28,479 bases of DNA, taken from the IMG/VR virus record IMGVR_UViG_3300020474_000078, positions 1-28,479 of that record; one strand, 5' to 3'. A program made the translations under genes and the position numbers. This DNA comes from a virus. Position 1 is the first letter of the stretch. Every line of letters starts with the position of its first letter. Shown piece after piece: positions 25,232 through 28,479 of the stretch. The notes below the pieces were generated by a model. That model did no database searches, had not been told where the DNA came from, and worked only from the letters and a program-made list of their open reading frames with translations.

Positions 25232-25503
25232 TGTATCTACTAACCTCAGAAAAACAAACAAAAGAAGGTGCTTATGCTGTAAAGGATAAGTCTGGAGATA
25301 AGGTCTTGTTCATTTTTGAAAAAGAAGATGATGCAGAAAGATACTCATCTCAGTTGTTTTCTGATCATGGAGTCCAAATGCAGGTTATAGAAATTGACGA
25401 GGGTGTTGCAATTTCTGCCTGTGAGATGTATAATTATAAGTACACAGTAATTACCCCTAACGATATCGTTGTACCGCCACCACTAGAGGATGATAAAATT
25501 TGA
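25231..25503 (+). CDS. DUF3110-like small protein between gp47 and gp46
   Basis: A 90 aa protein. VLFIFEKEDDAERYSSQL (residues 25-42), then a VQMQVIEIDE strand and YKYTVITPNDIVVPPPLEDD near the end, resembles the cyanobacterial/plant DUF3110 family, which has a 'FExEDDAxRYAxxLEAQ' core and a Pro-rich end; this is from memory. A ferredoxin-like alpha/beta fold is likely. Function is unknown for both. It overlaps gp47 by one base and gp46 by 14, so it is co-translated with the nuclease pair and may act with it. Confidence 0.78.
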   Translation: MYLLTSEKQTKEGAYAVKDKSGDKVLFIFEKEDDAERYSSQLFSDHGVQMQVIEIDEGVAISACEMYNYKYTVITPNDIVVPPPLEDDKI

Positions 25504-27220
25504 GAAAGTTCGTTGGAAAAATTTCCTGAGTACAGGAGACCAATGGACTAACATACAACTTGACAAGACTGGAACCACTCTTGTCGTAGGAAACAATGGT
25601 GCAGGAAAATCTACAATGTTAGATGCCCTGTGTTTTGTGCTATTCAATAAACCATACAGAAGAATAACAAAACTTCAAATGGTTAATAGTTCTAACGAGA
25701 AAGGAACCCTAGTAGAAGTTGAATTTAAAATAGGAACTAAAAATTATCTTGTTCGTCGTGGTATCAAACCAAATCTATTTGATATAGAAATCAACGGTGA
25801 GATGCGAAACAAAGAAGCAGATGATAGGATCAATCAAAAGATACTAGAAGATCATATATTAAAATTAAATTATAAATCATTTACACAAATTGTAATATTA
25901 GGTAGTAGTAATTTTATTCCTTTTATGCAACTATCTCTTTCTCATCGTAGAGAGGTGATTGAAGATCTATTGGATATTAAAATTTTCTCTGCAATGTGGA
26001 ATCTTGTTAAGGACAAGATCAAAGATATTAGAGATGAGATTAAGATACTGAATACAAAGAAAGATACTATAAAAGAAAAGATATTTATGCAAGAGGACTT
26101 CTTAAAAGAGTTGCAAGATAGGGGTGAAAAAAGTATAGAGAAAAATGAAGGAAAAATTACAAAAATTAATTTAGAAGTTGATAAATTACTTAATGAAAAT
26201 ATAGAAATTGAAGATCAAATTGTTACGAAAAATAAACAATTATTAGAGGTAAATGAATCTCCAAAAAGGTTGAAGACACTAGGAAATTTAAAGATCAAGT
26301 TAACTGAGAAAGTATCTGTTATTACAAAGGAACATAAGTTCTTTAACGATAATGTTACATGCCCTACATGCACCCAACCTATTGAAGAAAACTTTCGTCT
26401 AAATAAAATCGAAGACGCTCAAAATAGAGCAAAGGAACTCAGAGACGGCTATGTAAAGCTTGAGGAGTCGATAAAAGAAGAAACAGAGAGAGAGCGTCTT
26501 TTTCTCACACTTTCCAAGGAGATTACGAATCTAACACATGGCATTTCTCAGAACAATGTTCGCATTACTGGATACCAGAGACAAACAGGAGATTTACAAC
26601 AAGAAATTCAAACTCTTACCAAACAACTTCAAGGTAGAAATTCTGAACATGAGAAACTAAAAAGATTCGAGGATGATCTTCAACAAGTATTTGATGAACT
26701 CGTAGATAAAAAAGAAGATATAAAATATCAAGACTTTGCATTCTCTCTTCTTAGAGATGGTGGAGTGAAGTCTAAGATCATCAAGAAATATTTACCACTG
26801 ATTAATCAGCAAGTCAATCGTTACTTGCAGATGATGGATTTCTATATCAATTTTAAATTGGATGAAGAGTTTACTGAAACTGTTCAGAGTCCAGTTCATG
26901 ATAAATTTACATACTCATCTTTTTCAGAGGGTGAGAAAATGCGTATTGACCTAGCACTTCTCTTTGCTTGGAGAGAGGTTGCTAGGTTTAAAAATTCTGC
27001 AAATACAAATCTTCTTATACTTGATGAGGTGTTTGATTCATCACTAGATAGTGTAGGTACAGAAGAATTTAATAAGATTATTAAATATGTTATTGCAGAC
27101 TCAAATGTTTTTGTAATTTCTCATAAGATTGATATGTTAGATAAGTTCAATACTGTGATAGAATTTACTAAGAAAGGTGGGTTCTCTTATATGTCTAGTA
27201 AGTCTTTGGTTGAAGGTTAA
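25490..27220 (+). CDS. 46: Recombination nuclease subunit gp46 (Rad50/SbcC-like)
   Basis: A 576 aa SMC-type ATPase (T4 gp46 is 560 aa). Walker A GNNGAGKS (34-41), a long coiled coil (about 170-410) with a zinc-hook CPTC at 291-294, ABC signature FSEGEK (478-483) and Walker B LLILDEVFD (508-516) are all present. The gp46/gp47 complex processes DNA ends for recombination-dependent replication. ATG at 25490 follows an AGAGG and overlaps the previous gene by 14 bases. The coiled coil is short, as in other phage homologues. Confidence 0.96.
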   Translation: MIKFEKVRWKNFLSTGDQWTNIQLDKTGTTLVVGNNGAGKSTMLDALCFVLFNKPYRRITKLQMVNSSNEKGTLVEVEFKIGTKNYLVRRGIKPNLFDIEINGEMRNKEADDRINQKILEDHILKLNYKSFTQIVILGSSNFIPFMQLSLSHRREVIEDLLDIKIFSAMWNLVKDKIKDIRDEIKILNTKKDTIKEKIFMQEDFLKELQDRGEKSIEKNEGKITKINLEVDKLLNENIEIEDQIVTKNKQLLEVNESPKRLKTLGNLKIKLTEKVSVITKEHKFFNDNVTCPTCTQPIEENFRLNKIEDAQNRAKELRDGYVKLEESIKEETERERLFLTLSKEITNLTHGISQNNVRITGYQRQTGDLQQEIQTLTKQLQGRNSEHEKLKRFEDDLQQVFDELVDKKEDIKYQDFAFSLLRDGGVKSKIIKKYLPLINQQVNRYLQMMDFYINFKLDEEFTETVQSPVHDKFTYSSFSEGEKMRIDLALLFAWREVARFKNSANTNLLILDEVFDSSLDSVGTEEFNKIIKYVIADSNVFVISHKIDMLDKFNTVIEFTKKGGFSYMSSKSLVEG

Positions 27221-27222
27221 TT

Positions 27223-27762
27223 ATGAAAGAAGCATACATCGCTAAGAATGTTTTAGATTATACAGAGATCAAACAGGTCTATGATCATTTGATGAATAAT
27301 CCATGTTGGCATATCGGTGGTGGTTATGCTAATGCAGATAATCCAATACTAGCATACCCTAGATTTGTTGCAAAAGATCCTAATGGAATTCATTCAGAAT
27401 TTATTGCTGCATATATGATTGCAACGATGGTTAATGTTAAACAGAAGATCAGAGATAAATATGGTTTTGAACTACCTACACATGATGTAGAGTCTGTAGT
27501 TTTTAATGCCCAAAGAAAAGGCAACATACCTTGTTTCCATACTGATGGTACTGGTAGTAAAAAATATAGTTGGAGTATCATTGGATTCATGACTCCACAA
27601 TGGGATAAGTCTTGGGGTGGAGAATTGCAAATCCAAGAAGAGACTTTTACTTTTGAACCTGGTGATTTTATAGCATTCAAATCTACTGAACTACATGATG
27701 CTATGCCTATACTGGTAGACACACCATTTTACAGATTGACCTGTGCATGCATGATACCGTAA
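27223..27762 (+). CDS. 2-oxoglutarate/Fe(II) dioxygenase (prolyl 4-hydroxylase-like)
   Basis: A 179 aa protein. The iron-binding triad is FHTDGTG (His106, Asp108) and LHDAMPI (His158); Arg171 (FYRLTC) is at the 2-oxoglutarate-binding position. WGGELQIQEE (131-140) and FEPGDFIAFKS (144-154) are typical P4H double-stranded beta-helix strands. It would couple 2-oxoglutarate decarboxylation to hydroxylation of an unknown substrate, protein or nucleic acid. Such genes are frequent in marine T4-like phages. It starts two bases after gp46 and ends the unit before a terminator. Confidence 0.88.
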   Translation: MKEAYIAKNVLDYTEIKQVYDHLMNNPCWHIGGGYANADNPILAYPRFVAKDPNGIHSEFIAAYMIATMVNVKQKIRDKYGFELPTHDVESVVFNAQRKGNIPCFHTDGTGSKKYSWSIIGFMTPQWDKSWGGELQIQEETFTFEPGDFIAFKSTELHDAMPILVDTPFYRLTCACMIP

Positions 27763-27789
27763 TGTGACAGTATATTAAAGTGTCCACTT

Positions 27790-27814
27790 GAGGGTTTTTA
27801 CCCTCTATTTTTTT
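27790..27814 (+). terminator. Intrinsic terminator after the oxygenase gene
   Basis: GAGGGT (27790-27795) and ACCCTC (27800-27805) form a perfect 6-bp stem with a TTTT loop; after TA comes a run of seven T (27808-27814). It ends the gp55-gp46-oxygenase unit. Confidence 0.85.
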
Positions 27815-27816
27815 GT

Positions 27817-27831
27817 TATACTAGTAGTATA
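27817..27831 (+). promoter_or_regulatory. 15-base palindrome over a TATACT -10-like element
   Basis: TATACTA (27817-27823) and TAGTATA (27825-27831) are exact reverse complements around one G. TATACT (27817-27822) could be a -10 box, but no good -35 stands at the right distance. It lies 13 bases before the ATG at 27845, so an operator or a leader hairpin is possible. Confidence 0.45.
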
Positions 27832-27844
27832 CAAGACGAGACAA

Positions 27845-28479
27845 ATGCTTCACGAAATTAAAGGTAAACTTGCCAAACTCCTAGCAACAGAAAATTTGAT
27901 CATCGAGCATAGAGATGTGACTACTGCATCTTTCGATGTAGAGCGTAGAGTTCTTACTCTACCAATGTGGCAAATTAATTCTGAGGATGTATACGATCTT
28001 CTAGTAGCACATGAGGTAGGTCATGCACTTTATACTGACCCTCGCAACTGGTTCATGGAAGATGAGTACAAAGATCTTAATCCATCTTTAGTAAACATCA
28101 CAGAAGATGCTCGTATCGAGAAGTTAATGAAGAGAAGATATGCAGGTCTAAACAAAACATTCAGTAGAGGATATACACAATTAAATGAGGATGATTTCTT
28201 TGAGACTCAAGGTGAAGATCTTGCAACATATAGTTTCCCTGATCGTATCAACCTATGGTTCAAAGTAGGTGCATTCTTAAACATCAAGTTCTCTAACAAA
28301 GAGAAAGAGATTGTAGATCTTGTAGGTAAGTCTGAAACATTTGATGATGCATTAGTAGCAGCAAAAAGACTAAGTGCTTTTATCGAAGAGAACCAAACTA
28401 AAGATCTAGAGTTTGTAGAGAAATTAGTTTCAAAAGAAGGTGTTGCTCAAGGTGGTCTTGACAATCCTATGGATTTAGA
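27845..28479 (+). CDS. HExxH zinc metallopeptidase-like protein, 3'-truncated
   Basis: ATG at 27845 opens a frame with no stop to the window end (211 codons visible). HEVGH (residues 56-60) is a zinc-binding HExxH helix, preceded by a beta strand RRVLTLPMW as in gluzincins. NITEDARIEKLM (84-95) offers Glu87 as the likely third ligand, about 27 residues after the second His. I recall cyanophage proteins annotated as peptidases with this N-terminus and a von Willebrand A (CobT-like) C-terminus, next to a CobS/MoxR-like ATPase. The C-terminal part and neighbours lie outside the window, so this is a prediction. The visible C-terminal half is helical and charged. Confidence 0.85.
   Translation, partial: MLHEIKGKLAKLLATENLIIEHRDVTTASFDVERRVLTLPMWQINSEDVYDLLVAHEVGHALYTDPRNWFMEDEYKDLNPSLVNITEDARIEKLMKRRYAGLNKTFSRGYTQLNEDDFFETQGEDLATYSFPDRINLWFKVGAFLNIKFSNKEKEIVDLVGKSETFDDALVAAKRLSAFIEENQTKDLEFVEKLVSKEGVAQGGLDNPMDL

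Follow-up and report, generated by a model that had tools for sequence, protein, structure and literature searches.

A peptidase-VWA gene at the contig end and its ATPase neighbour

At 28,479 bases, the analysed window takes in a whole virus record, a marine phage contig, and its last gene (27845..28479, plus strand, 211 codons) runs from the ATG at 27845 in a frame that is still open at the contig end. This 5′ part matches the phage family phrog_459 / T4-GC146 (E = 9e-82). A first-pass annotation had described a truncated metallopeptidase gene with an HEVGH motif, starting a new unit after a terminator. The gene is confirmed, with HEVGH at residues 56–60 and NITEDARIE at residues 84–92, and its truncation is a contig-end effect because the contig ends inside it. 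The terminator was equally borne out: a sequence scan located an intrinsic-terminator-like hairpin, GAGGGTTTTTACCCTC (27790–27805), followed by the T run TATTTTTTTG (27790..27815 overall, plus strand; one found vs 0.1 expected), which separates the gene from its upstream neighbour. Ten relatives share a conserved start region, and the hairpin and T run persist in the closest of them. A putative −10-like box, TATACT (27817..27822, plus strand), lies 22 nt before the ATG; it is conserved in 10 of 10 upstream regions, reads TATAAT in other relatives and has no consensus −35 element. We infer from this conservation that TATACT may act as a promoter.

Upstream of the terminator, a 179-residue protein gene (27223..27762, plus strand) marks the boundary of the locus and is not part of the machine discussed below; its product has a weak match (E = 6e-7) to phrog_274, a family labelled DNA endonuclease V. 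The sequence is more suggestive of a 2OG-Fe(II) oxygenase-type protein, and L003, the near-identical contig described below, seems to encode several of these downstream as well. An imperfect palindrome (GACAGT..A..AAGTGTC, 27766–27784) sits between this gene and the terminator. Its core letters persist in ten relatives, but it was rejected as a repeated regulator site, since the window holds no good second copy. Further upstream is the recombination endonuclease subunit gp46 (25490..27220, plus strand), closest to cyanophage genes (65%). Other genes in the window, those for terminase, portal, major head, tail sheath, UvsW-type helicase and SbcD-type nuclease, mark the virus as a T4-like myovirus.

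We completed the gene with the IMG/VR contig L003, which encodes the same N-terminal part at 100% identity (tblastn, a rounded value; the printed translations differ at one residue). L003:530-2752 extends the product to 740 residues, which match the phrog_459 ‘peptidase’ profile from residue 3 to residue 740 (E = 9.2e-247). In order, the protein carries the N-terminal HEVGH...NITEDARIE domain, an acidic disordered linker (about 198–275), a helical region and a C-terminal VWA domain. Pfam searches returned no match for the window protein and only noise for the full-length protein (ribosomal L23), and sequence searches of the PDB found no relative. The N-terminal part is less than 60% identical to that of every isolate. 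By its sequence, the window gene is a new lineage within the known phrog_459 / T4-GC146 family.

The next gene in L003 (L003:2823-3908) begins 70 bp downstream and encodes a 361-residue CobS-like, MoxR-class AAA+ ATPase (phrog_249, E = 3e-136; PF07728, E = 1e-16). CobS lies downstream on the same strand in 68 of 71 relatives' contigs with enough sequence, and the three without it hold only 0.8–2.4 kb. The first-pass annotation had suggested an ATPase partner beyond the contig end and had mentioned cyanophage relatives joining a peptidase and a VWA domain near cobS; the latter correspond to the known core pair of T4-like cyanophages, ‘peptidase’ plus cobS. Relatives are encoded in 463 isolate records, and the peptidase and CobS record counts are equal for Synechococcus (365/365), Cyanophage (61/61), Prochlorococcus (24/24) and Pelagibacter phages (3/3). 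The pair lies between gp46 and gp45/gp44 in Syn1, S-SM2, S-SCSM1, HTVC008M and the much diverged Ochrobactrum phage OC, and the position of gp46 relative to the pair is the same in cyanophages, HTVC008M and OC. In Stenotrophomonas phage DLP6, the pair is outside the gp46–gp45 block, after primase/helicase (L105:45607-49732), and has its own reported promoter (PMC5349666). Our literature search found no cyanophage expression timing or virion proteomics for the peptidase-VWA/cobS pair.

An invariant metal site and a C-terminal MIDAS

The HEVGH motif (H56–H60, 28010..28024) forms the first metal-binding helix of a zincin-like domain, and NITEDARIE (N84–E92, 28094..28120) forms the second, both on the plus strand. 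A shuffled 211-residue sequence of the same composition contains HExxH with a probability of 0.0045. In the alignment of the window's family, H56, E57, H60, N84, E87 and D88 are invariant in all 86 relatives, and thus the motif is not a chance occurrence. An HExxH motif and a candidate third, acidic ligand in the following helix, as expected of zincin metallopeptidases, are both found here, as judged by invariance and by the modelled helices (residues 47–63 and 80–98). In known zincins, the glutamate of HExxH does not bind zinc but serves as the catalytic base.

The first-pass annotation had pointed to an HExxH helix and an EDARIE helix bearing Glu87; both helices are present, but Asp88 (28106–28108, plus strand) is a better candidate for the third metal ligand than Glu87 (28103–28105, plus strand). 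Asp88 is favoured because canonical cellular CobT proteins, which have no HExxH, keep the equivalent of Glu87 (81/82), together with Arg90 (81/82) and Glu92 (74/82), while the Asp position has become Gln or Thr in nearly all of them. DUF2201, a putative metallopeptidase family with an N-x-x-x-D pattern, had no copy in the genomes scanned.

At the other end of the protein, the VWA domain with a MIDAS motif anticipated by the first-pass annotation is in place. The letters DWSGSM occupy residues 433–438, and the complete set (D433-x-S435-x-S437, T543 and D575) is invariant in 86 of 86 aligned relatives. An AlphaFold2 model of the full-length protein (mean pLDDT 75.6) has a C-terminal half that matches VWA domains, among them NorD in the NorQD complex (9qhe, E = 1.7e-4) and the MDN1 MIDAS domain. 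A gene lacking both the VWA domain and a nearby AAA+ partner would have told against the proposed architecture; both were found.

The N-domain model (pLDDT 85.9) has zincins as its leading PDB matches, including selecase/minigluzincins, ArdC and PprI, although the matches are weak (best E = 0.095, prob 0.98, none below 0.001). Against a library of viral models, it retrieved further phage proteins named ‘Cobalamin biosynthesis protein’ or ‘VWFA domain’. An HExxH motif does not always mark an ordinary peptidase, ArdC being one exception. The presence of ArdC and PprI/IrrE among the fold matches raises the alternative that the AAA+/VWA module directs the zincin domain, as an agent of host takeover or anti-defence, at a host protein; the replication-module neighbourhood and the spread of the pair across unrelated phages and prophages are consistent with it. 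We regard this alternative as improbable, as the fold matches are weak and the near-universal presence of the pair among T4-like cyanophages points to a core function more than to defence.

Phage CobT and the cobaltochelatase branch

The first-pass suggestion of a CobT-like protein is supported by a chain of profile comparisons. One comparison aligns the metal-site region of the window's family with that of remote phage CobT (prob 98.2); a second aligns phage CobT with canonical cellular CobT along its whole length (E = 3e-76) and places the phage HEVAH against a non-metal segment. Homology between the window's family and CobT rests on this chain through remote phage CobT, as the direct comparison is weak alone (prob 30–50).

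All the remote phage CobT proteins from Rhizobium, E. coli, Roseobacter, Vibrio, Ochrobactrum, Stenotrophomonas and Pelagibacter phages carry HExxH; those of the Rhizobium, Roseobacter and Vibrio phages are annotated as CobT, and that of E. coli phage PhiR41_1 is unannotated. In alignments, every member of the window's family (86/86) and every remote phage or prophage CobT protein (18/18) has the H/E/H/N/D residues of the metal site, while HExxH is found in 0 of 82 canonical cellular CobT sequences, some of which are near-identical. A tree of the VWA domains unites canonical CobT in one clade (support 100/100) whose branch is flanked on either side by HExxH proteins, although the tree is midpoint-rooted and has several long branches, so its rooting is unsure. 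The simplest reading of these sequences is that the metal site was probably lost once, on the way to the chelatase. As far as the literature shows, such a clean split of the metal site between phage forms and the chelatase appears to be new.

Scanning genomes revealed two kinds of cellular CobT, one canonical and without HExxH, the other bearing HExxH and resembling phage elements, with CobS following and a sigma factor plus DnaE-type polymerase or an integrase nearby. HExxH-type CobT and CobS were seen in mobile elements of bacterial genomes (L106, L107, L112, L124, L125, L132 and L140) from alpha- and betaproteobacteria and one assembly labelled Phormidium; in most, a sigma factor and DnaE-type polymerase accompany them, arranged as in Rhizobium phage RHph_X66. 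A canonical CobT is present as well in four genomes that host HExxH-type elements. Plasmids queried with the Ochrobactrum phage CobT gave no match.

Two published readings of the pair are in conflict. Liu et al. 2021 (PMC8651126) considered the cyanophage protein to be a CobT ‘mistakenly annotated as a peptidase’ and proposed that it recruits CobN, while Iyer et al. 2021 (PMC7824862) described a jumbo-phage MoxR-VWA-metallopeptidase pair as an assembly chaperone for virions. According to the former, the viral CobST is a true cobaltochelatase that recruits host CobN, inserts cobalt and raises cobalamin during infection. The CobT homology through the profile chain, a match to phrog_5298 ‘cobalamin biosynthesis protein’ (E = 3e-4) and the CobS partner all agree with it, as does our Synechococcus elongatus control, which has a CobN-family gene and no CobT-family match. 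We nevertheless find a true chelatase quite unlikely, since the metal site is kept in 104/104 phage-type sequences and lost in 82/82 chelatase CobTs. In addition, the window-family protein matches neither TIGR01651 nor PF11775, leaving it without a match above the curated cut-off for CobT (TIGR01651 / PF06213 + PF11775), the family's CobS scores 54.7 bits against an equivalog cut-off of 558.55, and the pair also occurs where no CobN was found.

These occurrences come from the host genomes. No CobN-family gene was detected in the E. coli control, the host of PhiR41_1, which carries the pair, and neither CobN nor CbiC was detected in Parasutterella or in a betaproteobacterial bin, both with a prophage-like pair (genome completeness not given). 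The missing CobN in these three cases favours the metallopeptidase-type reading. It is not decisive for cyanophages, among whose hosts CobN-family genes can occur, as the S. elongatus control shows. Considered together, the invariance of Glu57 and the occurrence of remote forms where the host yielded no CobN speak for the MoxR-VWA-metallopeptidase reading over CobN recruitment.

Canonical CobT also seems to occur apart from the corrin pathway in cells. All 30 marine alphaproteobacterial single-cell genomes in one subset (within L108–L185; 1.0–1.6 Mb, 26–28% GC around the locus, e.g. L108:5970-7749) have canonical CobT without detectable CobN or CbiC, though the genomes are possibly incomplete. 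CobS adjoins CobT in nearly all of these loci, and the clade is tentatively SAR11-like. The Caulobacter control likewise has CobT and no CobN match. Such orphan CobST pairs suggest that the pair has another role in cells too.

Proposed mechanism and known systems

The domain order, the invariant metal site and MIDAS, the strict pairing with the ATPase, and homology to a CobT whose chelatase branch has lost that metal site are direct observations. On balance, we lean towards the pair being an ATP-driven remodelling machine that would unfold or present, and probably cleave, a specific protein as its putative target. Produced in the course of infection, this two-gene AAA+ machine would rely on the peptidase-VWA protein as the subunit that handles the substrate. 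By analogy to NorQD/CobST-type systems, the adjacent CobS-like MoxR-class ATPase would assemble into a hexameric ring, on which the C-terminal VWA domain would dock, gripping the target through its MIDAS metal and passing on ATP-driven motion. The N-terminal zincin-type domain, whose metal site is intact (His56, Glu57, His60 and probably Asp88), would hang from the acidic linker and may then cut or otherwise process the remodelled target. That target could be a phage assembly protein or a host protein. A virion-maturation target is not favoured, because the genes around the pair, gp46 to gp45/gp44, make up the replication/recombination block and not the structural one.

A related possibility is that the pair is a MoxR-VWA chaperone whose zincin-like domain binds metal or substrate without cutting, so that it acts as a co-chaperone remodelling phage or host complexes. 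Known MoxR-VWA systems such as NorQD and RavA-ViaA work without a peptidase, and the chelatase branch itself works with a dead version of the domain. However, Glu57 is invariant in 104 of 104 sequences, a level of conservation that suggests catalysis rather than structure, and we think a non-cutting chaperone rather unlikely.

A bolder reading is that the viral ‘CobST’ is an ATP-driven metallopeptidase machine and not a B12 enzyme, and that the cobaltochelatase subunit CobT descends, catalytically dead, from a peptidase-VWA protein of this type, with a single loss of the metal site on the branch to cellular CobT. We put this forward tentatively, as a serious possibility that falls a little short of probable. 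If it is true, the marine ‘cobS auxiliary metabolic gene’ is misnamed. Almost every marine T4-like cyanophage has cobS, which surveys routinely score as an auxiliary metabolic gene for vitamin B12; should the pair prove to be a remodelling protease, the ecological inference about B12 drawn from it is wrong. With the metal site kept in every phage form and lost in every chelatase form, the two published readings become directly testable.

Among known systems, the cyanophage core pair (phrog_459 + phrog_249; T4-GC146 + T4-GC150) is the closest: it has the same protein from end to end, the same neighbour and the same gp46–gp45 location, and the window protein differs from it in an N-terminal part below 60% identity to every isolate. 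The group 2.2 jumbo phage pair (PMC7824862), compared by its description, likewise places a VWA co-chaperone with an N-terminal metallopeptidase beside a MoxR ATPase. The CobS/CobT cobaltochelatase shares full-length homology through remote phage CobT, a VWA domain with MIDAS and a CobS-type ATPase, whereas HExxH is absent from all 82 cellular CobT sequences and the Asp is missing in nearly all, both of which the window protein keeps. NorQ/NorD is alike in its C-terminal VWA structure and adjacent MoxR ATPase, but NorD has no reported metal-peptidase domain and acts on a different target (PMC9976466, which also describes the NorQD mechanism). Selecase/minigluzincins, ArdC and IrrE/PprI resemble the window protein, weakly, in the zincin-like N-domain, and differ from it in having no AAA+/VWA partner.
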